From NCBI GenBank assembly GCA_035656635.1, contig DASRSD010000174.1, forward strand, positions 1 through 33,970: a stretch of DNA of 33,970 bases, given 5' to 3'. Made by a program: the position numbers and the translations under genes. Shown here piece after piece: positions 4,674 through 33,935 of this stretch. Origin of the DNA: Pirellulales bacterium. Lineage in GTDB: Bacteria > Planctomycetota > Planctomycetia > Pirellulales > JADZDJ01. Position 1 is the first letter of the stretch. The number at the start of each line of letters is the position of its first letter. The notes beneath the pieces were generated by a model. The model did no database searches. It saw nothing but the letters and a program-made list of their open reading frames with translations, and was not told the DNA's origin.

Positions 4674-5630
4674 TTATCGTTTCCGTCCCGGCGGCAGGGA
4701 CTGGCGCACCCGCCAAATTTCACGCCAAGGATCAGACCGCAGCTTCTTCAACCGTTCGACAGCATTTTTAACCGAGTATTGCTGCGGACCTTTTTGCGTG
4801 GAAAGCTCTGCCCAAGTGATTGGCATCGATACGCTGGCTCCCGGCTTGGCGCGAGTGGAATATGGAACTACTGAAGTTGCCCCGCGTTCATTCCGCAAAT
4901 AGTCGACGAAAATTTTGCCGCGTCGTGCCGCCTTTGACATCGTGGCAATGTATCGGTGCGGCGCGGCAGCGACCATGCTGTCGGCGAAGTCGCGAGTAAA
5001 CTGCTTGACTTCAGGCCAAGTTTGCTTCTGCGCCAGCGGCACCACAATGTGAAGTCCCTTTCCACCTGTCGTTTTGACAAAGCTGGTTAAGCGAAGCCGT
5101 TTTAAATTGTCGCGGACTAAAAAAGCTGCTTCGACCACTTCGTGCCAGGAAACGGCCGGATCGGGATCGAGATCAAAGATCATTCGATCGGGGCGCTCGA
5201 TATCGCCGGTCGGCGAACCCCAGGCATGAATTTCCAACGTCCCGAATTGCACCAACGCAATCAACCCTTCCAAATCCTGAACGACGGCGTACCTGCGGGT
5301 TTCGGTTTTCTCGCGAATGGAAATTTGCTGCACCGACGAGGGCATGCCGACAGGGGGATGTTTTTGGTAGAAGCAACCCGCGGCAAGACCTTCGGGGCAG
5401 CGAACCAGGACCAATGGCCGATTGGTAACGTGCGGTAATATCCAATCCGCCACTTCGATGTAGTAATTGGCGATTTGTCCCTTGGTAACTCCCGCATCTG
5501 GATAAACGATACGGTCTGGGTGGGTGATACGAAATGCGGATTTCACTTTCCCTTGGGCGGCTGCTGCCTTGGAGCGTGGTTTGCGCTTCGAAGCAGGTAG
5601 TGATCGGTGCGTGTTTGTTCGGGATGGCAT
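4674..5630 (-). CDS. ligD: LigD polymerase domain (archaeo-eukaryotic primase-type, NHEJ)
   Basis: This 318-residue stand-alone polymerase module of bacterial non-homologous end joining fills gaps with (ribo)nucleotides at broken ends. The catalytic metal ligands are visible: DLDPD (Asp153 and Asp155) and FVDYLRNERG (Asp243). KTTGGKGLH (186-194) is the nucleotide-binding loop. The N-terminal THPDRIVYPDAGVTKG is the usual start of the POL domain. The first 30 residues form a basic, low-complexity tail. The ATG at 5630 lies nine bases after the ligase stop and is in the same frame as the ligase gene, with only TAA and three sense codons between them. All catalytic residues are intact, so the protein should be active. 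No Ku gene is seen in the window. Confidence 0.93.
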   Translation of the reverse strand: MPSRTNTHRSLPASKRKPRSKAAAAQGKVKSAFRITHPDRIVYPDAGVTKGQIANYYIEVADWILPHVTNRPLVLVRCPEGLAAGCFYQKHPPVGMPSSVQQISIREKTETRRYAVVQDLEGLIALVQFGTLEIHAWGSPTGDIERPDRMIFDLDPDPAVSWHEVVEAAFLVRDNLKRLRLTSFVKTTGGKGLHIVVPLAQKQTWPEVKQFTRDFADSMVAAAPHRYIATMSKAARRGKIFVDYLRNERGATSVVPYSTRAKPGASVSMPITWAELSTQKGPQQYSVKNAVERLKKLRSDPWREIWRVRQSLPPGRKR

Positions 5631-5639
5631 AGCAAAATA

Positions 5640-6554
5640 TTAGACAGCCCTTTCACGTTTCACTTCACGCGAGGGCTTGTCTTGGCGCAGACCGAGGAAA
5701 GCTGCTTGTCGCAGCAGGCTGTCGTCGGTCCAGTTGTTAAATTGAATTTGTGCTACTAATTTTGGTTGAACCCAATGTACAGCGCCGGTCGCGCCTGGGA
5801 TGCGTTTGGTGGCGAAGGAAGACGCTTTTTGCTCCAGAGATTTCAAGCGGCTCAAAATGTCGCGCAGAGAGCGGCTGTTAAAGCCTGTGCCAACGCGCCC
5901 AGCATAAATTAATTTGCTTCCAGCCTGATAGTAACCCAGCAACAATGCGCCGAAACCGATGCGCGAGCCGGCAGGTCGCGTGTAACCGCCAACCACAAAC
6001 TCCTGCTCTTGGCGACATTTGCTTTTTAACCAGGCGCCGGTTCGGCCGGGTATGTACGGCGCATCTCGGCGTTTGGAAATCATTCCTTCCAAGCCCAGCC
6101 TGCACATCTTGCGGAGAAAAGCAGCGCCGGAGCCGAGCAAATGTTCGCTGTACCGTAAGCGATGCACGCGGGTAGGCAAATTGTCGATGAGCGATTTTAC
6201 AACGGCCTTGCGGCGTTCCAGGGCTGCGCCGGTGAGGTCAAAGCCATCCAGATGCAAGATGTCGAACACAAAATAGACCAGCCGATTCGTTTGCCGCTCG
6301 CTGAATGAGTTTTGCAATGCTTGGAAACTGCTGATGCCTTTGGAGTCGAGCACGACAACTTCACCGTCGAGGATGGCTTGCTTCACTTTCAGTTCGGTCG
6401 CCAGGGTCACGAGCGAAGATACTTTACCAGTCCAGTCTTGTTGGTTACGACTAATGAATTGCACCTTTCCAGCGCCAATTCGGCAAAACATGCGATAGCC
6501 ATCAAACTTTTGCTCGTGCAGCCAGCTCTCGCCGGAGGGCGGTTGCTTTACCAA
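5640..6554 (-). CDS. ligD: ATP-dependent DNA ligase domain of LigD (NHEJ)
   Basis: This is the ligase module with nucleotidyltransferase and OB-fold parts. Motif I is EQKFDGYR, with Lys16 as the adenylated residue. ILDGEVVV and FVFDILHLDG (motifs III/IIIa), GLEGMISKRRDAPY (IV) and GAWLKSKC (V) follow, and the C-terminal OB fold holds GRVGTGF. The start is uncertain. The first usable codon is TTG at 6554, but the frame is open back to 6665, and the upstream residues GAQRAAF-P-KKTDAQLATL are typical of the LIG domain. No ATG occurs before motif I. Expression may therefore come from the TTG, or from a -1 frameshift at the A9 run in the upstream phosphoesterase gene, giving a PE-LIG fusion. Confidence 0.88.
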   Translation of the reverse strand: MVKQPPSGESWLHEQKFDGYRMFCRIGAGKVQFISRNQQDWTGKVSSLVTLATELKVKQAILDGEVVVLDSKGISSFQALQNSFSERQTNRLVYFVFDILHLDGFDLTGAALERRKAVVKSLIDNLPTRVHRLRYSEHLLGSGAAFLRKMCRLGLEGMISKRRDAPYIPGRTGAWLKSKCRQEQEFVVGGYTRPAGSRIGFGALLLGYYQAGSKLIYAGRVGTGFNSRSLRDILSRLKSLEQKASSFATKRIPGATGAVHWVQPKLVAQIQFNNWTDDSLLRQAAFLGLRQDKPSREVKRERAV

Positions 6555-6628
6555 TGTGGCGAGTTGAGCGTCGGTTTTTTTAGGAAATGCCGCGCGTTGC
6601 GCGCCGGGAATTTCATCCAGAGAACTTC

Positions 6629-7333
6629 CTAGGTGGTGTTGCTGCTCAGCCTGCGACGTTTTTTTTTAACTAGACGGCGGCGATGCGCCTTGGTGCTTGA
6701 GACATCATCTGAATTACGAACAGCAGACTTTGCTGGGCCACGAATGGGGCGCATGTGTCCCGTCCGACGGGCGGCAATTTCGGCCAGCGTCCGGCCAGAT
6801 TTGGCGCTATTGGGAAATTCGACAAGCACATCTCCTTCCGACAATGGTTGCGCCGCTCCATCATGCTCTTTAATCAATAGCCAATTCACTCGGCCGCGAG
6901 AGGATGTCCCCCCCCTCATTCGTAACAGCATCCAGTTGCCGTGCAGTTTTTTGCCATTTAACGTGAATTTGAGCTTTCCTTGGCGATAACCTTGATCGGG
7001 ATCGCCTGCAGGCTTCCAAGAACCGTAATCCCACACCATCACGGTGCCTCCGCCGTATTGACCGGCAGGAATAATTCCTTCGAAACTTCGATAATCGATC
7101 GGGTGATCTTCCACCTGGACGGCTAGTCGTTTTTCTGCAGGATCCAAACACGGTCCTTTGGGTACAGCCCAGCTCAGCAGCACACCGTGCAATTCCAGGC
7201 GAAAATCGTAATGCAGATGACTAGCGTCATGCTTTTGAATGACGTAATGATGACCGCGCGGTATCGCGCCATTGCCCTGCGGTTCTGGGGTTCGGGAGAA
7301 GTTTCGTTTTTTATGATAAATGCAGAGGGCCAT
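6629..7333 (-). CDS. ligD: LigD 3'-phosphoesterase domain
   Basis: This 234-residue LigD phosphoesterase (PE) module trims 3'-phosphates and ribonucleotides at DNA ends. The start ATG at 7333 gives ALCIYHKKRNFSRTPEP, the usual start of this domain; a longer TTG start at 7387 would overlap the UdgX gene and adds nothing recognisable. Catalytic residues compare with the Pseudomonas aeruginosa enzyme with a constant offset: His35, His41, Asp43, Arg45 and His77 (in KHDASHLHYDFRLE and EDHP). The C-terminal 50 residues are a basic linker that ends in KKKRRRLSSNTT, and the lysine codons come from the A9 run. The gene lies 31 bases after the UdgX stop. It was probably a fused PE-LIG-POL ancestor, or is one by recoding. 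Confidence 0.9.
   Translation of the reverse strand: MALCIYHKKRNFSRTPEPQGNGAIPRGHHYVIQKHDASHLHYDFRLELHGVLLSWAVPKGPCLDPAEKRLAVQVEDHPIDYRSFEGIIPAGQYGGGTVMVWDYGSWKPAGDPDQGYRQGKLKFTLNGKKLHGNWMLLRMRGGTSSRGRVNWLLIKEHDGAAQPLSEGDVLVEFPNSAKSGRTLAEIAARRTGHMRPIRGPAKSAVRNSDDVSSTKAHRRRLVKKKRRRLSSNTT
6659..6667 (-). other. A9 homopolymer: candidate -1 slippage site joining PE to LIG
   Basis: On the minus strand the phosphoesterase frame reads GTT AAA AAA AAA CGT near its end and stops ten codons later. The run contains the heptamer A AAA AAA in the correct phase for -1 ribosomal slippage, and nine A residues also permit transcriptional slippage by one base. A -1 shift here enters the ligase frame at ACG TCG, which is open to 5640 and adds the conserved GAQRAAF..QLATL segment. 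This would give a PE-LIG product of about 564 residues. Alternatives are a sequencing or assembly error in the homopolymer, or a genuine split gene. Confidence 0.5.
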
Positions 7334-7364
7334 GATGAGACAAGTGCGATCACCAGCTTTGTAG

Positions 7365-8024
7365 TTATTTTGCGCTTTTGACAGCAATTTTGAGATCGTG
7401 AATCAATCGGTTTTTAATCCGATGCCGTTCGGCCAAATCTGGCGCTCGCAACGCCGATGATGGGTGATAGGTCGCAATCACGAAGTGCGCCAATGGAGAG
7501 GACATCAATTTACCCAGGTGCTGCGTTAGCCTAAAATTACGATCAAACACTGTCTGCGCTGCAGTCGCGCCTAGACAGACTATAGTGCGCGGGCGAACCA
7601 CTTCAATTTCCGCTTCTAACCAGGGGCGACAGGCCCGAATTTCGCGCATGCTAGGTTTCGTATGCAACCGCCGTTTGCCACGCTGTTCCCATTTAAAATG
7701 TTTTACCGCATTGGTCAAATACACTTCGCTACGAGCGGCGCCCGCTGCTTCCAGGCACTGCACAAGTAATTTTCCGGCCGGACCCACAAAAGGCTTTCCT
7801 TGGCGATCTTCTTGATCGCCCGGAACTTCGCCAATGATCATCAGGCGCGCTTGAGCAGGCCCGCTGCCAAACACCGTTTGGGTGGCATGACGGAACAGCT
7901 CACAACCCCGGCATCCCTGGGCCGATTCGCGTAGCGATTTCAACGAAAAGTGCGACGGCAAAAACTGTATGGCCGAATCGTGAAGTTTCGTTGGATCGGC
8001 GCGAGAAAGCGAAGCGAATCGCAT
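7365..8024 (-). CDS. UdgX-type uracil-DNA glycosylase (4Fe-4S, covalent His)
   Basis: This 219-residue glycosylase removes uracil from DNA and, in the UdgX branch of the UDG superfamily, forms a covalent bond with the resulting abasic site through a histidine. Visible signatures are the four cluster cysteines C38, C41, C132 and C150; motif A GEVPGDQED (65-73) followed by GKPFVGPAG; and the UdgX-specific loop GKRRLH with His121, which corresponds to the covalent His109 of the Mycobacterium smegmatis enzyme. NAVKHFKW precedes the loop, ACRPWLEAE follows it, and motif B HPSSALR is at 187-193. These features separate it from ordinary family 4 enzymes. It lies directly upstream of the LigD PE gene and downstream of a DUF3309 gene on the same strand. 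The ATG at 8024 lacks a clear ribosome site. Confidence 0.9.
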   Translation of the reverse strand: MRFASLSRADPTKLHDSAIQFLPSHFSLKSLRESAQGCRGCELFRHATQTVFGSGPAQARLMIIGEVPGDQEDRQGKPFVGPAGKLLVQCLEAAGAARSEVYLTNAVKHFKWEQRGKRRLHTKPSMREIRACRPWLEAEIEVVRPRTIVCLGATAAQTVFDRNFRLTQHLGKLMSSPLAHFVIATYHPSSALRAPDLAERHRIKNRLIHDLKIAVKSAK

Positions 8025-21496: not shown

Positions 21497-21820
21497 TAGC
21501 TTTGCTGTCTTTTATACTGCCTTGGCTTTCGCCTGATGCTGATTTTGCTCAAATCCATCGTTCTACGAGAATAGCGTATTTTATTGACTGGTTACGTGCT
21601 GTCAAAGGCTTGGACGCCGGACAATTCGGATCCCATCAGGCAAAATTGGGTGCCTGCAGATTGCTGAAAGTCTTTGCCACGCCACGGATAAGTTTCGCGA
21701 TCGGAAAATCCGGCACACAGGGCTGATGGGCCGCACCCGTTTAAGCCGACAAAGGTAGCAGAATCCTAGTTCGCGCTGTGGTTGCGCGCCGGCGATACCA
21801 ACCCGTTGAGGATGGATCCA
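21497..21820. other. intergenic region between tRNA-Ile and the thioredoxin-like gene
   Basis: The first 20 bases hold a possible promoter (-10 TATAAA, minus strand) of the tRNA gene. The remainder up to the ribosome site at 21807-21812 has no supported gene. Short open frames on both strands lack ribosome sites and recognisable residues. A GC-rich, structured-looking stretch at 21716-21770 was considered as a riboswitch leader, but no known motif could be matched. Confidence 0.6.
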
Positions 21821-23731
21821 ATGCGACACATGTTTTGCCGAGTTTTTTCCGTGCAAATTTTATTGGGTATTGTGCTGTATTTGCCGGCGGCGGCCCACGC
21901 GGCAGCGCCCAGCGTCGATCAGGCCTTAAAGCTGACGCCAGTGCAAAAAGACGTGGATTACGATATTCCAGCGCCGGCCGACATCGCCAAATGCACCATC
22001 AAAGCCGAAAAGATTAGCAATCAAACCGGCTGGGTCGTCCGTGCACCTAACGGTCAAATCTTACGTGAATTTGTGGACACGAACGGGGATAATGTAGTCG
22101 ATCGCTGGAGCTATTTTAAGGACGGTATCGAGGTTTACCGCGACATCGACGAAAACTTCAACGGCAAGGCCGACCAGCACCGTTGGCTGAACACGGCCGG
22201 CAGCCGCTGGGGCTTGGATCCGGGCGAAGATGGCAAAATCGATTCGTGGAAAGTGATTTCCCCGGAAGAAGCTAGCGCGGAAGTAGTCATGGCCATCCGC
22301 GATAAGGATACGGGCCGTTTCAACCGCTTGTTAATTACTCCGGCGGAAATTAAATCGCTCGGCCTGGGGCCGGCAAAGACAAAGGATTTAAGCGAAAAAG
22401 TAACTGGCGCCACTTCGAAATTCAGTGAGCTAATTCACAACCAACGGGCCATCACTCCTAATACGCAATGGGTGCATTTTAGTGGCGCTCGTCCCGGCTT
22501 AGTTCCTGCCGGCACCGACGGAGCCACGGGCGACATCACGGCCTATGAAAACGTGATGGCCATGACCGAAACCGATGGCAAAGACGGCCAGGTTTCGATC
22601 GGTACGTTGGTCAAAGCGGGCGACGTATGGCGCGTAATTGGCGCTCCATCAATTCCAGATCCAAACAGCAAACTGGCCGAGGTCGATGGCTTTTTCTTTC
22701 AAACTGCCAACCGCTTGAACGATACGGCGGCAAACGAAACCAATCCAGACGGGCCGCCCGAAAAAATTCAAAAGATGATGGATGAGCTTTCGAAGCTGGA
22801 CGAAGCGGTAGGCAAAGCCAGCAGCGACGCGGAGCAAACTCGGCTAAATGACCGCCGAGTGGAATTAATGCTGACCATTATCGATGAAATTGGCGAAAAG
22901 GACCGTGCCCAATGGATTCGTCAATTTGCCGATTCCGTTAGCGCCGCGACACAAACTGGCGGCTATCCGGCCGGTATCGATAAGCTCCAGTCCTTGCTTG
23001 AAACGGTGCAAAAAAATCCGGCGGATGCGGCCTTGGTGCCCTACGTAAAATACCGTTTGTTGACCGCCAAATACGCCTCCGACCTGAAGCAGAAAGACTT
23101 CGTGAAAGTGCAGGCCGAATGGCTCGATAATCTCGAACAGTTTGTACAAGATTATCCCAAAGCCGCGGATTCCGCCGACGCGCTCCTGCAACTAGGAATT
23201 GCCCAGGAATTCGCCGGCCAGGAAGACAAAGCCCGAAAGTGGTATGGCGAATTGGTTTCGGACTTTGAAACCACATCCCAAGCCACGAAAGCCCGCGGCG
23301 CACTGCACCGAATGGACAGCGTCGGCAAACCAATGCAACTGCGGTCCAAAACGGTTACGGGCGCGGCGGATGATTTGGCCAAATATCGCGGCAAATACGT
23401 GCTGATTCACTACTGGTCCACCTGGTGCGAACCGTGCAAGACGGATTTCGCAGAGCTAAAGGAACTGTACGCGAAGTATGGGAAGAGCAATTTTGCGCTA
23501 ATCGGGGTGAATCTTGACGGCAACCTGCCCGATGCCACCGATTATTTGGCCAAGAATCGTCTGCCTTGGTCGCAACTTTGGGAACCTGGCGGGTTAGACA
23601 GCCGCTTGGCCAACGAAATGGGCATTCTCACACTGCCGACAATGATTTTGGTCGACGACAAAGGAGTTGTCATCAATCGCAACGTGCACATTTCCGAATT
23701 GGAAACGGAATTGAAATCGCACCTCAAATAG
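21821..23731 (+). CDS. secreted TlpA-like thioredoxin-domain protein with EF-hand-like loops and helical repeats
   Basis: This 636-residue exported protein has a signal peptide (1-29). Residues 86-143 hold three acidic loops of the D-x-N-x-D-G-type ending in Asp and then Trp, such as DTNGDNVVDRW and EDGKIDSW, similar to calcium-binding EF-hand or thrombospondin type 3 loops. A middle helical region follows (about 300-500, TPR-like, with AADSADALLQLGIAQEFAGQEDKA). The C-terminal thioredoxin fold (about 510-636) contains YWSTWCEPCK with Cys536 and Cys539, and the cis-Pro region LTLPTMILV. TlpA/ResA-type domains reduce disulfides in the periplasm. The ATG at 21821 is chosen for its upstream TGAGGA site; in-frame ATG 21812 is an alternative. 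Confidence 0.87.
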   Translation: MRHMFCRVFSVQILLGIVLYLPAAAHAAAPSVDQALKLTPVQKDVDYDIPAPADIAKCTIKAEKISNQTGWVVRAPNGQILREFVDTNGDNVVDRWSYFKDGIEVYRDIDENFNGKADQHRWLNTAGSRWGLDPGEDGKIDSWKVISPEEASAEVVMAIRDKDTGRFNRLLITPAEIKSLGLGPAKTKDLSEKVTGATSKFSELIHNQRAITPNTQWVHFSGARPGLVPAGTDGATGDITAYENVMAMTETDGKDGQVSIGTLVKAGDVWRVIGAPSIPDPNSKLAEVDGFFFQTANRLNDTAANETNPDGPPEKIQKMMDELSKLDEAVGKASSDAEQTRLNDRRVELMLTIIDEIGEKDRAQWIRQFADSVSAATQTGGYPAGIDKLQSLLETVQKNPADAALVPYVKYRLLTAKYASDLKQKDFVKVQAEWLDNLEQFVQDYPKAADSADALLQLGIAQEFAGQEDKARKWYGELVSDFETTSQATKARGALHRMDSVGKPMQLRSKTVTGAADDLAKYRGKYVLIHYWSTWCEPCKTDFAELKELYAKYGKSNFALIGVNLDGNLPDATDYLAKNRLPWSQLWEPGGLDSRLANEMGILTLPTMILVDDKGVVINRNVHISELETELKSHLK

Positions 23732-24341: not shown

Positions 24342-24732
24342 CGCATTTTGCAACAATTGAGTGACCGCCAGATGGGAACCATCCTGCTGATTTCCTTGCT
24401 GCTTGCTAAGATTTTCCGCACAGGGCTTCGGTCCTGAAAAGTTTGCGTGCCAGCATTGCCAGCGGCGTTTCAAGCGCCACTCTCGGCAAATGCGAAAAAA
24501 AACTCCCCTTCGGCACAATCCGCAACCGACACCTATTCTCAGCGGCATGCTCCGACGACGGATTGCGCAGGGAGCATGCGCTGCGGAATACAACTTTATT
24601 AATCGACGAGCAAACCCCGAGCGATAACGCCGACGTCACCCAGCCGTCGGAACGTGGCCAGTCCATCAACGCTGGTTGTCGGGACGCTTAGCGAAAGATT
24701 GTCAGGGCACGGTTTACATTAGGAGGGGAATC
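24342..24732. other. intergenic region upstream of the BON-domain gene
   Basis: This region of about 390 bases has no supported gene. Open frames on both strands (74 and 87 residues) overlap each other, start with non-ATG codons or without a ribosome site, and show no family features. One has a C-x2-C pair followed by Arg/His that looks like a partial zinc knuckle but has no second pair. The region ends with the AGGAGGGG ribosome site of the BON gene (24721-24728). Confidence 0.6.
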
Positions 24733-25836
24733 ATGCGACGTGTGTTATGGTCGGCAGCGCTTGCCAGCATTGCCTTATCCGCCGGTTTAGTTCTGGCCGG
24801 CGATCAAGAGACTTCGCAGCAAATTGCGGATAGCCTCAGCAGCCGTTTGAAGAATTATAGCGTGGGTGTAAAAGTAGAAGACGGCACCGTGTGGCTGAAT
24901 GGTTTTGTCGCCAACCAAAAACAAATGGCCATGGCTATCCAAACGGCGCAGCGTTGTCCTGGCGTCGAGCGGGTCGTAAACAATTTGGCCATCGGCAGTG
25001 TTGCGCCAGCCTCGACTGGCAGCGTGCACAACACAGCAACCAGTGGCGGCAATACACAGTTAGCTAACAACAAATTCAACGACGACGCCGCACGCCCTCA
25101 AATTCCGCAAGCCAATATGGACATGCCGGAACAAGCCCGACAGCAGTTGGCGCTGGCCGGGTCCAACGCCAACTTGGAAGGCCCTGCCTCGGCAAGTGTC
25201 AATGGACAATCTGCCCAGGCACGCCCATCGAATGCACAAACCAGCTTTGCCAATGCACAAACCAGCTTTGCCAATGCACAAGGCAGCTTTGCCAATGCAC
25301 AAGGCGCCCCGGGTTATTTTCCTGGGAACGGTGGATATCCGATGAATACTGGCTATTACGCCAGCGCCCCAGGCGCTTCCGGCAATACGAACGCAGCGTA
25401 TTATGCTCCGGCTCCGGGTGGCATGGCGCCCGCCGCCAATGGCATGCGGCCGATGGCTCCGCCACAAGGCCCGCTACCGCTGGCCGCCGCCAATCCGACC
25501 TTTCGTCCTGCCGCGATGCAAGGCAATCCGGGCAACATGGGAGAATCCATTGGTGCGCCGCAACCGATGCAGCCAGCCGCGCCAATGGGCGCCGGGGCAC
25601 CGGCTCCGTATCACTTCGACCATCCGCAAATGCCGGGCTATGCGTGGCCGAGTTATGCGGCGTATCCAAACTACGGTGCCGTGACATATCCGAAGCAATA
25701 TTCACCGACTGCGTGGCCGTACATTGGTCCGTTCTATCCGTATCCGCAAGTGCCATTAGGTTGGCGGAAAGTGTCGTTGGAATGGGAAGACGGCTGGTGG
25801 TTCCTCGATTTCAAAGACTCGCATAACTCGAAGTAA
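24733..25836 (+). CDS. BON-domain exported protein with low-complexity body and Trp-rich C-terminus
   Basis: This 367-residue protein has a signal peptide (1-22). The BON domain (about 25-90) contains SSRLKNYSVGVKVEDGTVWLNG and CPGVERVVNNLAI, the usual beta-alpha-beta pattern; BON domains bind lipid membranes or periplasmic partners. A long Ala/Gly/Pro/Met/Asn-rich body (95-330) includes a 21-bp tandem repeat (NAQTSFA units). The C-terminus VPLGWRKVSLEWEDGWWFLDFKD is compact and Trp-rich and resembles a planctomycete-specific tail that I recall from similar proteins. The ATG at 24733 has AGGAGGGG just upstream; a longer frame upstream lacks support. A strong terminator follows directly. Function is unknown; an envelope location is likely. 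Confidence 0.82.
   Translation: MRRVLWSAALASIALSAGLVLAGDQETSQQIADSLSSRLKNYSVGVKVEDGTVWLNGFVANQKQMAMAIQTAQRCPGVERVVNNLAIGSVAPASTGSVHNTATSGGNTQLANNKFNDDAARPQIPQANMDMPEQARQQLALAGSNANLEGPASASVNGQSAQARPSNAQTSFANAQTSFANAQGSFANAQGAPGYFPGNGGYPMNTGYYASAPGASGNTNAAYYAPAPGGMAPAANGMRPMAPPQGPLPLAAANPTFRPAAMQGNPGNMGESIGAPQPMQPAAPMGAGAPAPYHFDHPQMPGYAWPSYAAYPNYGAVTYPKQYSPTAWPYIGPFYPYPQVPLGWRKVSLEWEDGWWFLDFKDSHNSK
25231..25305 (+). repeat. 21-bp in-frame tandem repeat, 3.6 copies
   Basis: Units start at 25231, 25252 and 25273, with a partial 12-base copy at 25294. The consensus aatgcacaaaccagctttgcc encodes NAQTSFA; the third unit and the partial copy have ggc for acc (Gly for Thr). The copies are near-identical at the DNA level, so recent expansion by slippage is likely, and copy number may vary between strains. 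Confidence 0.95.
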
Positions 25837-26071: not shown

Positions 26072-26647
26072 ATGTTACGCCGATCAACCTGGCTCGCTGT
26101 CGCACTACTTGCCCTGACAACGCTTACCAATAGCGGGTGCTTTTGGATCGCTACGCAGGGACCCAACATCGGACCTTTGGCAATTCCTATTCCCGTTAGT
26201 CCGTACTTGCAAAAGGAACAGGAAGATCGCTATTGGGTTCACTTGCGTTATGAGCGTGTGCCCATTCTTGGCCCGATTACGGCGGGTGGTCCGGTGCACG
26301 CACTCGATCCGCCTAGCGACGACGAAGTGATGCGGGCGTTGGAAAAGGCCCGTCCGATTCAAGGCGGTCTTCCTATGTTGCACGAAGAGCAGCGCAACAA
26401 TGTACGCATTGTGAAAGAAAAGATTGCAGATTATGTCGATCCCCCGCGGTTTTATCCGCTGATTGGACCGGCTCAATTACACCATGCCCATTACAAATGC
26501 ACGGTGTACTTCACCGAGATCATTCGTGTCGGCTGGCCGGTGCCGCATACGAAGATTGATGAGGACGCCTCCGAAGTGCTGTACATCGATCACAACCACT
26601 TCCACGTCGTGGGAGATGTTGATTTCGGGCCGACGAATGGATATTAG
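26072..26647 (+). CDS. putative lipoprotein, hypothetical
   Basis: This 191-residue protein has an N-terminal signal sequence LAVALLALTTLTNSGC, with a lipobox-like end at Cys23 (weak: N-S-G-C rather than L-A-G-C). The mature part has no family I recognise. It contains PLAIPIPVSPYLQKEQED, a Pro/Ile-rich strand region, and a C-terminal IDHNHFHVVGDVDFG segment with several His residues. A GAGGAG ribosome site at 26058-26063 supports the ATG. It is preceded by the BON terminator and followed by its own terminator, so it is probably monocistronic. Envelope attachment is an inference. Confidence 0.75.
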   Translation: MLRRSTWLAVALLALTTLTNSGCFWIATQGPNIGPLAIPIPVSPYLQKEQEDRYWVHLRYERVPILGPITAGGPVHALDPPSDDEVMRALEKARPIQGGLPMLHEEQRNNVRIVKEKIADYVDPPRFYPLIGPAQLHHAHYKCTVYFTEIIRVGWPVPHTKIDEDASEVLYIDHNHFHVVGDVDFGPTNGY

Positions 26648-27095: not shown

Positions 27096-30000
27096 ATGTC
27101 CAACACTGCCGTTCGGCTGTTGTTGAAGGTTACGCTTGGCACTGTGTTGTGCGGCGCATTGGTGAGAGGGGCCTGCGCGGACGAGGCCGATGATCAATTC
27201 GCTCTTGCTTCCAACCATTACGCGTCGAAGCACTGGGATGCCTCGGCCGAGGCGTTCCACAAATTCTTGCACGATCATCCCGACCATGCCAATCGTTGCA
27301 AAGCCATGTTTTACGAAGCGGAGTCGCTAGTTCAGCTGGGCCGTAGCGCAGAAGCTTATCCGCTCTTTTTGGATGTGCTTGCGGAAGAACCGACCGGCGC
27401 CACGGCGCGAGTGGCCTTATTTGGCGCGGCGGAAGCGGCCGTGTTCAATGGACAAGCCGACGAAGCGCAAATTCGTTTGCTGCAATTTCAATCGCAATTC
27501 CCCGGCGACAGCCTCAACGCCAAGGTGTCAATCTACCTTGGTGATTTGGCGATGAAAGCCGGTGACCTTTCTCGCGCCGAGCAATTGTATCGCGAGTCGA
27601 TGCAAAAATACGCCGACCAGCCGATCACCGACCAATGCCGCTTGAATTTAATCCGCATCTTCGAGCAGCAAAAACAATTTGAAGCTGCAGAAAATATGCG
27701 GCACGAAGTGGCCCAACGCGGCCATAGTCCGTGGGCAGAGACGGCGCTGTTACAACTGGCCAGTCAGGAACTTGTCGAAAACAGGCCGCAATCCGCTCTG
27801 GAGCAATACAAGGCGATTGAAGAGCATTTTCCCAGCACTCCGCTGCTGCCACAAACACATTTAGGTTGCGGGCGCGCCTTGTATCAGCTGGCGCATTATG
27901 CCGAGGCGGAAGATGTATTGGGCGCTTTGACGAAAAATCCTGCCGTCGAGGATGATGCGCAGCATTGGCTTGCGCTATGCCAGGAGGCCGACAAACAAGC
28001 CAAGCTTGCCGCTGAAAAGCGCCAACAGGAGGCGGAAGTCGCGGCCAAGCAAGCGGAACAGAAAGCAAAGGTCGCCACGGAACTGCGAAAGGCGGAAGCA
28101 CAGAAAACCCAGGCGGTTGCCAAGGCAAAATCCGATGCAGACGCAGATCGTGCGGCGAAAAACAATCAATCGCCGGTTGTCGCAGCGCCCATCAACCCGA
28201 TTCAATCGACCCTTAAATCGATTCTATCTTCGCGCCGCGACCCCAAAGCCGTTCCCGCACCTGCGCCATCGAGCGTGGCCGCCAATACCAAAGAAAACGG
28301 TGATCATCCGGCGACGAAAGAGCCCAGCGCGAAGGAGGGTTCCTCGGCGAACACGACCGTAGATCCGTTTGCGGCAACCAATCCTGCCGCTTCAACAGAC
28401 AGCACTGCCGCGGCTGCGATCACAACGAAGCCAGCAGGATTACAACCGGTTTCGCCGGAAGTGGCCGCCGCCCAGGAAGAGCAAACTCGCCGCCGTTCCG
28501 CCGTAGTACGTTATCAGGCGGCGGAGAGCATGATTCGCGCCCACCAATACGATCGCGCCATTGCCACCTTGCAAATAGGAGATAATTCGGGCGACGACCC
28601 GCATTCACTGGCCAACCGCTATTTGTTGTATACCGCCTTGCAAGCCGACAAGCGAAGTGACGAGGCGCAAGTTACTCTGGACGATTTAAGTGAAAAGCTG
28701 CAAGTGAAGCTGGCGGCAAGCAATTCGTCGTCCAGTTCAGCGCAGACCACGCCACTTTTTCCGGACGATTTGACAGCTCTTCGCACGCTGAACGATCAGG
28801 TGCAAATGGCGCGCGCCACGCTATTGTTAAGCCATGAAAAATATGCCGAAGCGATCGTTCCATTGCAAACTTATTTAGACACACCGCGCAAAGACGTCGG
28901 TGCGGAAAAGGCCCGTTACGCTTTGACGGTTAGTTTGACGCACGTGCCGGGCCGCCTCGCCGACGCTCAGAAAGCATTGGAGGAGCTGAAAGCGAATCAT
29001 CCCAGCAGTGCATTCATTATTCCCGCCACCGAACAAGTGGCTGACGCGGCCTACGCTGCTAACCAATATTCACTTGCCGCTACCGCATTCAAAGACTTGG
29101 CTGCCGACGGCAATCCGTCCGACATGGTCGCCAAGGGTTTGTCCGGCGCGGCCTGGTGTCATTTGCAAATGAATGAGGAAGAAGCCGCCGATCAAGCGTT
29201 CGCCAAATTTTTGGAGCGCTGCCCGAGCGATTCGCGAGCTCCTATGGCAGCCTTGGCGCGCGGCCAAATTCTGGAGCGTGAAAATCATGTTCAAGCCGCC
29301 TTGGTCGTTTATCGCGAAGCCATTAAGCGCTACGGTCAATCGCAGCAAATGCCAAAGTATTTGCACGCGGCGGCGCGGCTGTATGACCGGGTGAATCAGC
29401 AGCAGGATGCCGCTTCGTTGTATCAACGCTTAGCGCGAGATTATCCCACATATCCGGAAATTGACGCGGTCTTGTACAGTTGGGCCTGGTCGCTGCGCGA
29501 TCTGGGACACGCTGCTGAATCGGATAAAGTGTTCCGGCTGTTGTACGACAATCAGCCGCATAGCCACTATTGGGCCGATGCCACGTATCGGTTGGCGGAG
29601 CGGGCTTCGCAACAAGGAGATAACGACACCGCCAGCGCATTTCTGAAGCAAGTTGTGGAAAGCAGCTGTCCGACGCCCGTGTTGCAACACGCTTTGTTTT
29701 TGCAATCGCAACTTGCAATTGCCGGCGAAAAGTGGGCAGACGCGGAGCCGGCGCTGACACGCATCGTTCGCGACTTTCCTGATGGTTCCATGCATTTAGC
29801 AGCCGAATTCTGGCTCGCAGAAATTGCCTACCGCGCCGGCGATTATACGCTGGCTCAGCAGCGATTTGAAGAACTTGCCCCACGGGCGGCCAATGGAACC
29901 GAGAAATGGGCGGCCATTGTGCCATTGCGGCGCGCGCAAATTTTCGGACAACAGAAGCAATGGGGCGCCGCCCTGGAGTTGGCAGCATCTATTTCCCACG

Positions 30001-30404
30001 ATTATCCGCAGTTCTCGCAGCAATATGAGGCGGATTACCTGATTGGCCGCTGCCTGGCGGAGCAGGCCGATTTTGACGGGGCTCGTGCCGCCTTCGATAA
30101 AGTGATCCACTCCAGCGTCGGCGGAAAAACAGAACTAGGCGCCATTGCCCAATGGATGACCGGAGAAACCTATTATCACCAGGGCAATTACTCGGCCGCC
30201 TTGCACGAATATTTGCGTACCGAGGTGGTTTACTCATACCCGCACTGGCAGGCCGCCGCGTTGCTCCAGGCCGCTAAATGTTACGAGCAGTTAGGTCAAG
30301 CGCAACAAGCCTCCGAAATGTATAGTCGTGTGTTGCAAAGTTATCCGCAAACAGAATTCGTGGCCGAAGCGAGCAAGCGGTTAGTTGATACGACACGGAG
30401 ATAA
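27096..30404 (+). CDS. large exported TPR protein with TolA-like coiled coil
   Basis: This 1102-residue protein has a signal peptide (1-28). Residues 30-295 are helical TPR-type repeats with YbgF/CpoB-like spacing (A-x-x-x-F-x-x-F-L/P pairs, such as AEAFHKFLHDHPDH). Residues 296-354 form a charged Ala/Lys/Glu/Gln helix (QAKLAAEKRQQEAEV) that strongly recalls the TolA domain II helix. A disordered Pro/Ser/Ala linker of about 110 residues follows, and then a second, longer TPR array (about 470-1095). It is the first gene of a four-gene set with ExbB/TolQ, ExbD/TolR and a TonB-like protein, and may be the periplasmic scaffold. The ATG at 27096 lies shortly after a GAGGGGG sequence. Confidence 0.88.
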   Translation: MSNTAVRLLLKVTLGTVLCGALVRGACADEADDQFALASNHYASKHWDASAEAFHKFLHDHPDHANRCKAMFYEAESLVQLGRSAEAYPLFLDVLAEEPTGATARVALFGAAEAAVFNGQADEAQIRLLQFQSQFPGDSLNAKVSIYLGDLAMKAGDLSRAEQLYRESMQKYADQPITDQCRLNLIRIFEQQKQFEAAENMRHEVAQRGHSPWAETALLQLASQELVENRPQSALEQYKAIEEHFPSTPLLPQTHLGCGRALYQLAHYAEAEDVLGALTKNPAVEDDAQHWLALCQEADKQAKLAAEKRQQEAEVAAKQAEQKAKVATELRKAEAQKTQAVAKAKSDADADRAAKNNQSPVVAAPINPIQSTLKSILSSRRDPKAVPAPAPSSVAANTKENGDHPATKEPSAKEGSSANTTVDPFAATNPAASTDSTAAAAITTKPAGLQPVSPEVAAAQEEQTRRRSAVVRYQAAESMIRAHQYDRAIATLQIGDNSGDDPHSLANRYLLYTALQADKRSDEAQVTLDDLSEKLQVKLAASNSSSSSAQTTPLFPDDLTALRTLNDQVQMARATLLLSHEKYAEAIVPLQTYLDTPRKDVGAEKARYALTVSLTHVPGRLADAQKALEELKANHPSSAFIIPATEQVADAAYAANQYSLAATAFKDLAADGNPSDMVAKGLSGAAWCHLQMNEEEAADQAFAKFLERCPSDSRAPMAALARGQILERENHVQAALVVYREAIKRYGQSQQMPKYLHAAARLYDRVNQQQDAASLYQRLARDYPTYPEIDAVLYSWAWSLRDLGHAAESDKVFRLLYDNQPHSHYWADATYRLAERASQQGDNDTASAFLKQVVESSCPTPVLQHALFLQSQLAIAGEKWADAEPALTRIVRDFPDGSMHLAAEFWLAEIAYRAGDYTLAQQRFEELAPRAANGTEKWAAIVPLRRAQIFGQQKQWGAALELAASISHDYPQFSQQYEADYLIGRCLAEQADFDGARAAFDKVIHSSVGGKTELGAIAQWMTGETYYHQGNYSAALHEYLRTEVVYSYPHWQAAALLQAAKCYEQLGQAQQASEMYSRVLQSYPQTEFVAEASKRLVDTTRR

Positions 30405-30479
30405 GGGGCAATCGCTTGGCATGACCTGCAACGAACATTCAGGGCCTTGGAAAGACACTCGTCGCAAAAGGATTTGTCG

Positions 30480-31343
30480 ATGAAAATTGCCGTTGCTTCG
30501 GGTCGTCGAACGTTTGCCATTACGGCCATTGCCACGCTGCTGGTGTGCAGTAACTTCTTGTTGGCGCAGTCGTGGGCACAGAACACGCCGGCTCAAAACT
30601 CGGCCCCGATAGCGGTTCCACAAGCAGCAGCCGGCGGCGAATTACCGCCGGCCGACGATAGTTTGGGGATCGCCAATAAAAGCCTGCTGAAAATTATTCG
30701 AGACGGCGGATTCGTAATGTATCCGTTGTTTCTCTGCTCGTTCGTATTGCTGATGTTCACCTTCGAACGGGCCATCAGCTTGCGTACTGGCCGCGTGATC
30801 CCGGGTCCATTCATCAAGCGTTTCTTGCATCAGTTGCAGGATGGGCAATTAGATCGGGATGAAGCTCGGCTGGTATGCGAAGAAAACGGCAGCTCGGTGG
30901 CGCGAATTTTTGAGGCCGCGGTTCGAAAATGGGGCCGGCCGGCAGTCGAAGTGGAACAAGCCGTGATCGATTCCGGCGAGCGCGTCGCCGGCGATTTGCG
31001 CCGTTACCTTCGCATTTTCAACGGCGTGGTGACCATCGGCCCCCTGTTGGGCTTACTGGGCACAGTGTTTGGCATGATCCGCTCGTTCAGCGATATTGCC
31101 GCGTCGGAAAACACCGGACGCTTGGAGACCTTGTCGCACGGCATCAGCGAAGCATTATTTTGCACGGCAACTGGGCTCTCGGTCGCGATCCCCGCCGTGG
31201 TGTTGCATTTGTATTTTGTGAGCCGCGTGGATCGTCTGGTCATTCAGCTCGATACACTCGGTCAGGACGTGGTGAACACCATCTCCGCCGAAGCATTGCA
31301 AGAAGCCGGCCAATCGCGCCGCAGCCGCAAATCGGCCGCATGA
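30480..31343 (+). CDS. MotA/TolQ/ExbB proton channel family protein
   Basis: This 287-residue inner-membrane protein has an unusual N-terminal extension: a signal-like hydrophobic segment (12-33) and a Pro/Ala-rich periplasmic stretch to about 65. Three helices of the ExbB/TolQ core follow, near residues 78-97, 180-202 and 225-246. Core motifs are NGVVTIGPLLGLLGTVFGMIRSF (181-203), and GISEALFCTATGLSVAIPAVVLH, the proton-pathway helices of the family. It forms the pentameric stator with ExbD. The ATG at 30480 is preferred over 30447 because it starts the hydrophobic segment directly. It follows the TPR gene by 75 bases and precedes ExbD by 125 bases. Confidence 0.93.
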   Translation: MKIAVASGRRTFAITAIATLLVCSNFLLAQSWAQNTPAQNSAPIAVPQAAAGGELPPADDSLGIANKSLLKIIRDGGFVMYPLFLCSFVLLMFTFERAISLRTGRVIPGPFIKRFLHQLQDGQLDRDEARLVCEENGSSVARIFEAAVRKWGRPAVEVEQAVIDSGERVAGDLRRYLRIFNGVVTIGPLLGLLGTVFGMIRSFSDIAASENTGRLETLSHGISEALFCTATGLSVAIPAVVLHLYFVSRVDRLVIQLDTLGQDVVNTISAEALQEAGQSRRSRKSAA

Positions 31344-31468
31344 GAAAGTGATTTTTGATGAAAACTTACTTGCCCCTGGTCTAAGCGCCGAGGGTCCTAC
31401 GCAGTTTCCACTCTCACCTCCGTCCGTTTTGATCCCCCCGATCCCGCCTTTCCGTCTTGTGTCACGCC

Positions 31469-31888
31469 ATGCCACTGAAAATCGCTGATCCTGAAGAACC
31501 GACGTTGAATTTGACGCCGATGATTGACGTCATCCTTACGCTCGTCATTTTCTTCATGGTCGCCACGAAGTTCACAGATGAAGAAAAAGCGATGAGCGTG
31601 AAAGTGCCGTCGGTCTCCAGCCAGCAAGCGGTGAATTCTGCTGCGGAGCCGAAGGTGGTGAACGTGTTTGCCGACGGACACATTTTGCTCGGCACGCAGC
31701 CGGTTTCGCTCGACGATTTAACGCAGCAATTGGCCGCTGCTCATGGACAGTATCACAAGCTCAGCGTGTTGGTTCGCGGTGATCGCGATACAACTCACGG
31801 ACGCATGACGGAAGTGTACGACGCCTGTCGCCGCGCCGGCATAACGGAAGTAGCAATTTCAGTTAAGGTCGGCGCCAAACAAAGATGA
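31469..31888 (+). CDS. ExbD/TolR family biopolymer transport protein
   Basis: This 139-residue protein is of normal length for ExbD/TolR. The short cytoplasmic end is followed by the single helix LTPMIDVILTLVIFFMVAT, which carries the essential Asp20 of the proton pathway. The periplasmic domain then holds VNVFADGHILLG, LSVLVRGDRDTTHGRMTEVYDACRRAGI, matching the ExbD fold. The ATG at 31469 is used; an upstream in-frame TTG at 31457 is less likely. The gap to ExbB (125 bases) is the longest in this operon and holds a tiny eight-codon frame. The TonB-like gene follows after ten bases. Confidence 0.93.
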   Translation: MPLKIADPEEPTLNLTPMIDVILTLVIFFMVATKFTDEEKAMSVKVPSVSSQQAVNSAAEPKVVNVFADGHILLGTQPVSLDDLTQQLAAAHGQYHKLSVLVRGDRDTTHGRMTEVYDACRRAGITEVAISVKVGAKQR

Positions 31889-31898
31889 GCGGATTGCT

Positions 31899-33935
31899 GT
31901 GCTTGCCTCGATTTTTGAACCCATTCACCGCTTTCTTACGCATCCGCAGTTGGTATGGATTCTGCTGTGGCTGGGGTTGGCGTTTTTGATCGTGACGTTA
32001 ATCGTCATGATTCGCACCAGTTGGGGGCAATCGCATCCGCTGCGTAAATGTGTTGCGTTGTCGCTTCTGGCGCATCTGCTATTGTTGTGTTACGCCACAT
32101 CGGTCCACATTGTGACCGCCAACGGCAACGGTCATACCGGTGGCATGAGCTTGTTGCTGGTTGATGGTGGAGAGAATGGTAATGATTCGGGCACGGACGA
32201 TGGTCCCGATCAACCGTCGGTTACAGTCGCCGACTCCGCAGAATCCATTTCTGCATCCGCACCGCCGCTGTTAAAAGTTGCTGAGCCTTCTGCTACAACG
32301 CTGCCCAAACCGGTTGAACAGCCTATGGTCGCTCCGGCGATCACGGAAACCGCACAACCAACAGCGCCCCAACCGACTACTTCCGATGAGCCCCGCCCAA
32401 CGTCGGTTGCAGAGAAGTCAACACCGGCGGATGTGGCCGCAGTTAAGCCGGACGATAAGCCCGAAAAGCCAAGCGAGCCACTGCCCACCGATGCGCCCCC
32501 TGCCCCGCTGACAAAACTGCCCGATCCGCCCACGACGAACGACTCGAGCGAGTGGGTGGCAGGCGATCCCAGAGGCACTGCTACGCCGGCGCAGCCGACA
32601 ATTCAAGGCCCGCCGAAAACCGTACCCTTGGTAGACAGCCCGGAAAGTAAATCGGCCGACAACATCGAGACGAATCCCGCGCCGAAAGATGACCGCAGCA
32701 CCGTGGCGGTGCGTGTTCCAGCGACAACCAATGCGGCGGCAAACAATTCCACGACATCGAACGCCGGCGTCACTGCCCCCTGGGTCGAAAACGCAGCGGC
32801 GCCTGTTGCTGGACGCGGAGTTCCGGAAATTTATTCCGATCGGATAGCGCCTAATCGAGCGGAAATTGGCCGTCGTCGCGGCGGATCGCCTGGTTCAGAA
32901 TCGGCCGTGGAGGCAGCACTGCAATGGTTGGCGCTGCATCAAGGCAGCGACGGCGGTTGGGACGCCAGCAAATTCGGCGCGCACCAGGAAACTGCGGAGC
33001 CGCCTGCACAACGCCAAGGCGCCGGAAGCGTAGGCTCTCACGCCGATACGGCGATGACAGGATTAGCGCTATTGGCATTTCTCGGGGCGGGCAATACGCA
33101 CCAGCGAGGCGATTATGCGGCTAACGTCCAGCGCGGGCTGGAGTTTTTAATCAATTCACAAGCTCGCGACGGCAACCTGGCGGGCCAAGCCGAAACTTAT
33201 GCCTTTATGTATTCGCACGGCATGGCCACGCTGGCAGTGAGCGAAGCGTACGCTATGACGGGTGACAAACGGCTGGAACCGACGGTGTCTGCGGCGATTA
33301 ATTACACGTTGAGCGCCCAAATTCGCACCACCGGCGGTTGGCGCTACCGAGCCACGGAATCGCCGGGCGAGCGCGGCGATACCAGCCAACTCGGTTGGCA
33401 ATGGATGTCGCTCAAAAGCGCCCAATTGGCGGGAATCAATATCCCTGCCAGCGCCTCCGACGGCGCCGTGCGGTACATCAAAAGCGTTTCCGCCGGGCAA
33501 TTCGGAGGCAAAGCAAGTTATCGTCCTGGAGAGCGCCCTACTCGGCCGATGACTGCTGAGGCCCTGGTGTGTCGCCAGTTTTTGGGCATGGCTCGCGATA
33601 ATCCGGCCAGCGATGAAGCAGGCCAATATTTGCTTTCTGATTTGCCGCGGCCGGATCGAATCAATTTGTATTACTGGTATTATGGCACGCTGGGGATGTA
33701 CCAGTTGCAAGGCGATGCCTGGAAGCAATGGAACGAAGCGCTACAAAACACGCTCATTGGCAAGCAACGGACCGACGGCGATTTGGCCGGCAGTTGGGAC
33801 CCAGAATGCATTTGGGGCGGTTACGGAGGACGGGTGTATAGCACCGCACTTTCGGCGCTGTGTTTGGAAGTATATTACCGCTACCTGCCGCTCTATCAGG
33901 CCAATCGCCAGTTGCCACAAGCGGCCGATAAGTGA
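31899..33935 (+). CDS. TonB-like anchor fused to a squalene-cyclase/prenyltransferase-like toroid domain
   Basis: This 678-residue protein is encoded right after ExbD (GTG start, ten bases). Two N-terminal membrane helices span about 18-38 and 51-71. The second reads CVALSLLAHLLLLCYATSVH, with Ser55-x3-His59 matching the SxxxH motif that couples TonB to ExbB/ExbD. A Pro/Thr/Ala-rich linker (about 85-325) follows, like the TonB linker. The C-terminal 340 residues form an (alpha/alpha) toroid with prenyltransferase/squalene-cyclase repeats: ALQWLALHQGSDGGWD, FLINSQARDGNL, YTLSAQIRTTGGWRY and DGDLAGSWDP, ending ALSALCLEVYYRYLPLY. Terpenoid-cyclase catalytic DxDD was not seen, so enzymatic activity is doubtful. 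It may be a force transducer with a toroid end domain. Confidence 0.85.
   Translation: MLASIFEPIHRFLTHPQLVWILLWLGLAFLIVTLIVMIRTSWGQSHPLRKCVALSLLAHLLLLCYATSVHIVTANGNGHTGGMSLLLVDGGENGNDSGTDDGPDQPSVTVADSAESISASAPPLLKVAEPSATTLPKPVEQPMVAPAITETAQPTAPQPTTSDEPRPTSVAEKSTPADVAAVKPDDKPEKPSEPLPTDAPPAPLTKLPDPPTTNDSSEWVAGDPRGTATPAQPTIQGPPKTVPLVDSPESKSADNIETNPAPKDDRSTVAVRVPATTNAAANNSTTSNAGVTAPWVENAAAPVAGRGVPEIYSDRIAPNRAEIGRRRGGSPGSESAVEAALQWLALHQGSDGGWDASKFGAHQETAEPPAQRQGAGSVGSHADTAMTGLALLAFLGAGNTHQRGDYAANVQRGLEFLINSQARDGNLAGQAETYAFMYSHGMATLAVSEAYAMTGDKRLEPTVSAAINYTLSAQIRTTGGWRYRATESPGERGDTSQLGWQWMSLKSAQLAGINIPASASDGAVRYIKSVSAGQFGGKASYRPGERPTRPMTAEALVCRQFLGMARDNPASDEAGQYLLSDLPRPDRINLYYWYYGTLGMYQLQGDAWKQWNEALQNTLIGKQRTDGDLAGSWDPECIWGGYGGRVYSTALSALCLEVYYRYLPLYQANRQLPQAADK

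Follow-up and report, generated by a model that had tools for sequence, protein, structure and literature searches.

A putative TonB/TolA-type force transducer with a toroid head in Planctomycetota, most likely part of a Tol-like envelope machine

Introduction

What might an ExbB/ExbD-type motor act on when the gene directly behind it encodes a protein that starts like TonB and ends like a terpenoid cyclase? This question is raised by the last gene in a stretch of 33,970 nucleotides (hereafter the window; contig DASRSD010000174.1) from the 4.9 Mb genome of a Pirellulales bacterium. The original prediction, made from the sequence without database searches, suggested a machine driven by the proton motive force that pulls on something other than a TonB-dependent receptor, in an architecture for which no described system was known. 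TonB-like anchors with vWA end domains beside TPR-tolQ-tolR genes have already been described, however, and PorE of Bacteroidetes has been read as CpoB, TolB and Pal fused into one protein (Williams-Jones et al. 2025, PMC12204202). Among the planctomycetes examined earlier, TonB was found in only four (PMC3422733).

Results

The open reading frame at 31899..33935 on the plus strand is real and encodes, from a GTG start, a protein of 678 residues, which we regard as a toroid-headed TonB/TolA-like force transducer on the basis of the reading frame, an alignment of orthologues, an AlphaFold2 model, a structure match, linkage and distribution. It closes a set of four plus-strand genes. The first encodes a TPR protein with a signal peptide and YbgF/CpoB-like repeats (27096..30404; TIGR02795, the YbgF model, 2.8e-64, and TPR Pfams), the second an ExbB/TolQ-like motor subunit (30480..31343, with an open frame from TTG at 30447; PF01618, MotA/TolQ/ExbB, E 5.6e-27) that has a signal-like segment at its N-terminus and a short periplasmic extension, and the third an ExbD/TolR-like motor subunit (31469..31888, with an open frame from TTG at 31457; PF02472, 1.4e-27) whose transmembrane Asp lies within TPMIDVILTLVIFF; 10 bp separate its stop codon from the GTG of the transducer gene. 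Among the NCBIfam models, TolQ (6.1e-25) beats ExbB (5e-16) for the second gene, and TolR (2.4e-17) is the best for the third, yet the scores of these best equivalog models remain below the models' own cut-offs.

Upstream of the set, on the same strand, lies a gene for a conserved lipoprotein (26072..26647; lipobox TNSGC), which in Pirellulales is a linked neighbour and a possible partner of the set; it was present in 26 of the 51 loci whose flank reaches 5 kb. Its family is highly conserved (about 60% identity across the order), and neither a Pfam match nor a recognised fold was obtained for it: the structure predicted by AlphaFold2 is weak, with a mean pLDDT of 74, a Foldseek comparison with known structures gave nothing at E < 0.001, and the best VIA Z was 4.8. 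As a universal partner the lipoprotein was rejected, being restricted to the class and without linkage outside the order. A BON-domain protein (24676..25836, plus strand; PF04972, 2.6e-12) is a linked neighbour in 16 of the 51 loci, and a thioredoxin-like protein (21782..23731, plus strand; PF13905, 5.4e-16) is a looser one, encoded close to the set at a number of orthologous loci. Because only 35 bases of the contig follow the transducer gene, downstream partners cannot be read at this locus, and the orthologous loci hold no recognised conserved gene downstream of the transducer. Elsewhere in the window (4674-7387), three consecutive minus-strand reading frames resemble, on a sequence reading only, the primase, ligase and phosphoesterase parts of LigD, separately encoded.

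The AlphaFold2 model of the transducer, built on an alignment of 31 orthologues, begins with two helices. Helix 1 (residues 16-39, 31944..32015) is an extra transmembrane helix that is absent from TonB, and helix 2 (residues 47-74, 32037..32120) is a TonB-like anchor helix; conservation falls from helix 2 (0.64) through helix 1 (0.49) to the linker (0.24). The motor-coupling motif S55-x3-H59 (32061..32075), which the original prediction had recognised as Ser55 and His59 of a TonB-like helix, proved to be conserved in the orthologues: H59 is invariant in all 31, where it is the sole invariant residue among the first 110, and S55 is nearly so, with one orthologue having Ala. An automatic test for the motif was passed by 72 of the 78 best relatives, and two of the remaining six have it on inspection. 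When 50 toroid proteins were sampled across the phylum, S-x3-H was present in the last helix preceding the toroid in 43; 1000 shuffles gave 3.6 on average and never more than 11, and other spacings gave 0 to 10. Four canonical TonBs of the same order, which served as a positive control, show the identical motif. Since H59 is invariant, S55 is nearly so and the count of 43 stands against a shuffled mean of 3.6, the anchor motif exceeds chance.

A short basic loop before helix 2 (R39, R49, K50) would fit insertion from the cytoplasm to the periplasm as in TonB, an orientation that is inferred. After helix 2, most orthologues have an alternating hydrophobic, strand-like segment, here MSLLLVD (residues 83-89, 32145..32165), which we infer to be comparable to the motor box of TolA and TonB (PMC12204202) and treat as a candidate. 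The linker (residues 75-309, 32121..32825) is rich in Pro (16%) and predicted to be disordered, with a pLDDT of about 35-45 over most of its length. When the first 110 residues were compared by sequence with proteins of solved structure, only chance matches resulted. The profile of the orthologues does match TolA chains among solved structures (E about 1e-3), but this is weak support only, because the linker is rich in Pro and Ala and its composition may drive the match.

The end domain (about residues 310-665, 32826..33893) is an alpha/alpha toroid, modelled with a pLDDT mostly above 90. Pfam SQHop_cyclase_C (PF13243) is matched at 3.8e-7, and the structure comparison gives squalene-hopene cyclase 2sqc a VIA Z of 25.9 (rmsd 3.2 over 294 residues), with AprG, cellobiose epimerases and GH76 at a Z of about 21-23. 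The Pfam scan of the transducer yielded no PF03544 and no vWA match. The structure prediction that had been named as a way of checking the claim thus upholds a Pro-rich linker followed by a toroid in place of the TonB fold. The six inner helices of the toroid are conserved at 0.76-0.84 and the outer ones at 0.52-0.68, as would be expected of a ring with a ligand pocket.

Searched with a profile of the N-terminal anchor, 83 of 97 Pirellulales genomes (73 of the 80 good ones) proved to encode the protein, almost always in a single copy, and the best relatives include Blastopirellula marina DSM 3645, Planctomycetales bacterium 10988 and many Pirellulales MAGs. For the survey of the four-gene set, which had also been proposed as a check, the best 80 loci of the genome collection were used; all of them are labelled as planctomycete groups, and other phyla were not searched systematically. 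ExbB and ExbD lie upstream in 69/69 of these loci with at least 1.6 kb of upstream sequence, and the TPR gene in 46 of the 51 with at least 5 kb of flank. Because the loci were chosen by similarity, the former figure favours orthologues; when loci were instead drawn genome by genome, ExbB and ExbD were present at 32 of 33, the remaining one being a paralogue. The predicted position of ExbB and ExbD directly upstream therefore holds across the order, and it extends beyond it. In the ExbB tree, all 33 members of the order fall into one starred clade (100/99), except the second motor of the same genome, and on this clade the motor would appear to be inherited vertically in the order.

That second motor belongs to another ExbB-ExbD-toroid set of the source genome (contig C153, L041 1-2834), in which a single-helix anchor (SLVIH) has a Pro-rich N-terminus ahead of it, and whose motor branches outside the clade that holds the window's motor. 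The same genome also encodes short toroid proteins that are secreted and have no TonB-like anchor (L045 6638-7690 and L046 7414-8667), flanked by genes resembling MoxR/DUF58/BatA-type operons.

The transducer system is phylum-wide in Planctomycetota. In the sister order, a two-helix transducer adjoins ExbD and usually not ExbB, and the gene order TPR-ExbB-ExbD-transducer recurs in distant classes (L129-L131, L299-L305 and L307, with L306 cut by the contig end). The transducers of distant classes are about 1190-1547 residues long and consist of a first helix, a PD40 beta-propeller, two helices, a linker and the toroid, with the motif present in most. The propeller stands ahead of the anchor helices in every one of the 11 relatives that were tested from other classes; it scores to the PorE and CHU_0125 models, and one also to TolB. 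This arrangement may explain helix 1, because a periplasmic propeller before the helix requires an N-out start in the relatives, and an N-out start is inferred for the Pirellulales protein as well. The single-helix toroid proteins of the wider phylum usually have no adjacent motor genes, and many genomes encode several toroid proteins.

Some variants deserve separate mention. A protein of 2017 residues (L308 2911-8961) starts with a vWA domain, followed by the same anchor of two helices and a Pro/Ala linker of great length, and no toroid is matched in its C-terminal part; its gene lies beside ExbD, ExbB and TPR genes; on its predicted domains it is a bridge to the described vWA transducers. 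Another transducer of the phylum (L299 3749-7318) has a PDZ domain after the toroid. Tandem toroid proteins occur in other planctomycete classes (L140, L142, L147, L149, L155 and L157) with no motor genes nearby, and most of them have single-helix SxxxH anchors.

As regards possible loads, TonB_C (PF03544) was not found in 35 of 57 Pirellulales genomes, among them the source genome, and 27 of the 57 have no Plug domain. Receptors are absent from many genomes with the transducer, and since nearly all of these genomes have the transducer, the claim that the load is something other than a TonB-dependent receptor gains indirect support. The source genome does encode a diverged outer-membrane protein resembling a TonB-dependent receptor (contig C61, L257 1-1323, truncated; full length in L258 6649-9474), whose family occurs where canonical TonB_C is missing. 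As no more than 27 of the 97 Pirellulales genomes have this family, a TonB-dependent receptor was rejected as the universal partner. TolB and Pal were found in 0 of 57 genomes above the curated cut-offs, with weak propeller and OmpA-like matches in most; these TIGR cut-offs are not tuned to Planctomycetota, and a canonical Tol-Pal system in the order appears unlikely but is not excluded.

Discussion

We are confident, though short of certain, that the protein is a motor-coupled transducer with a toroid head, its docking and the force on it being inferred. By membership it is neither TonB nor TolA, because its end domain fails the test; it most likely works like them. In the mechanism that we propose, ExbB and ExbD would form the proton channel, S55 and H59 of helix 2 would dock onto the motor, and the strand after helix 2 may bind the periplasmic domain of ExbD. 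The Pro-rich linker would cross the periplasm, so that the toroid could take hold of some partner at the wall or outer membrane, which the motor would then pull. Against such coupling it counts that helix 1 is without a counterpart in TonB or TolA and that the motor is not always adjacent in relatives.

If the protein is indeed a motor-coupled, toroid-headed transducer, a Tol-like role is the assignment to which we lean with moderate confidence, meaning that it would serve the energised linkage and remodelling of the envelope together with the CpoB/YbgF-like TPR protein. We prefer this role over one in uptake mainly because of the propeller fusion, the CpoB/YbgF-like TPR protein and the TolQ/TolR-like motor; as far as can be judged from sequence, genes and domains alike speak for a machine of the Tol type more than for an importer of the Ton type. 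The whole proposal, a trans-envelope force transducer of the TolA/TonB type, driven by the proton motive force and acting in a Tol-like envelope machine, is accordingly somewhat better than an even guess.

The vWA force transducer (PMC12204202) is the closest described kind. It shares with the Pirellulales protein a TonB/TolA-like anchor helix with Ser and His, a disordered Pro-rich linker, an end domain other than that of TonB, adjacent TPR and TolQ/TolR-like genes, occurrence in the PVC group and an unknown function, whereas the Pirellulales protein ends in a toroid, goes with one ExbD/TolR instead of a pair, has an extra transmembrane helix and has relatives with a fused PD40 propeller. The novelty claimed by the original prediction is therefore narrowed: a related vWA architecture is on record, and within the literature covered here only the toroid form remains without a description. 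PMC12204202 does not mention a toroid or cyclase, and no description of the toroid transducer architecture was found in the literature, with most subscription journals and all preprints outside our scope. As far as titles and abstracts reveal, no paper within this scope joins ExbD with squalene-cyclase-type domains in the sense of a force transducer, and the main text of an essential-gene paper on Planctopirus limnophila is without ExbB, ExbD and TonB.

With TolA and Tol-Pal the system has in common the TolQ/TolR-like motor, the CpoB/YbgF-like TPR neighbour, the SxxxH anchor and, fused in relatives, the TolB-type propeller; it differs in that the toroid replaces the C-terminal fold of TolA and that TolB and Pal were not found above curated cut-offs. 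TonB-ExbB-ExbD likewise combines an SxxxH anchor helix, a Pro-rich linker and ExbB/ExbD, but the transducer has no TonB_C, has two N-terminal helices and occurs in many genomes in which receptors are missing. In PorE, too, Tol parts are fused, and the propeller of the phylum-wide relatives scores to its model, although PorE is an outer-membrane lipoprotein with neither anchor nor toroid and the transducer is inferred to be anchored in the inner membrane. Squalene-hopene cyclase shares the toroid fold and a weak sequence profile match, but it is the transducer that lacks DxDD, is tethered by a TonB-like helix and is linked to a motor.

The strongest competitor of the Tol-like role is uptake instead of tethering, in which the toroid would bind either a substrate, for instance a polysaccharide, or an outer-membrane gate of a non-canonical kind and pull it inward, as FusB does with ferredoxin. 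This reading stays attractive because planctomycetes take dextran into the periplasm in a CCCP-sensitive manner by an unknown outer-membrane route (PMC5394234) and because FusB, which is TonB-like, can bind its substrate directly (PMC7593965); the scarcity of TonB among the planctomycetes examined earlier (PMC3422733), the many carbohydrate enzymes among the fold relatives of the toroid and the several toroid proteins of many genomes would also suit it. Nevertheless, the set shows no linkage to a gene for a transporter or binding protein, the two-helix type occurs almost universally and as a single copy, more in the manner of a housekeeping protein, and the fused propeller and the TPR protein point to Tol, so that we consider uptake unlikely.

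The toroid could also be a periplasmic enzyme, terpenoid- or carbohydrate-active, which the anchor merely positions. Its fold is common to squalene-hopene cyclase, AprG and GH76, the conserved inner helices suggest a ligand pocket, and Pec_lyase profile matches occur in 24 of the 31 orthologues. The DxDD motif, which had been singled out beforehand as a sign of known enzymatic function, is absent from the sequence, as are DxC and CGEQ, and a purely enzymatic role would leave the invariant H59 and the strict linkage to ExbB and ExbD unexplained; we regard it as distinctly improbable. Still weaker is the idea that the protein is a TonB that has diverged and passes energy to TonB-dependent receptors by way of the toroid. 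The truncated receptor with a plug-like domain in the source genome, where TonB_C was not found, and the receptors without TonB_C in other genomes of the order speak for it, but it would be hard to reconcile with the distribution: 83 of 97 genomes have the transducer, whereas the receptor family reaches only 27 of these 97, and 27 of 57 are devoid of Plug. That the anchor is an ordinary membrane helix, with SxxxH and the ExbB/ExbD linkage implying no motor coupling, can hardly be maintained against the motif conservation, the shuffles, the positive control in real TonBs and the phylum-wide gene order, even though no docking model or experiment places helix 2 on ExbB and some toroid proteins lack an adjacent motor.

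It is probable that planctomycetes exert force on their cell envelope through a previously undescribed head. We further speculate, although we rate this as less likely than not, that Planctomycetota have rewired the Tol machine by making propeller, motor anchor and toroid head the modules of one protein, in which the toroid would be an unrecognised force-bearing head that replaces the grip of TolA and Pal and underlies the linkage of inner and outer membranes, and perhaps macromolecule uptake dependent on the proton motive force. If the proposal is true, it names an energised trans-envelope machine of a phylum that is mostly without canonical TonB and in which Tol-Pal was not found at curated cut-offs, and the force-transducer superfamily gains a new kind of end domain. 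It would also provide a concrete gene set for deletion in genetically tractable planctomycetes, which would bring two questions within reach of testing: by what means these bacteria keep their outer membrane in place and reshape it in the course of budding, and which energy source drives their CCCP-sensitive macromolecule uptake (PMC5394234).
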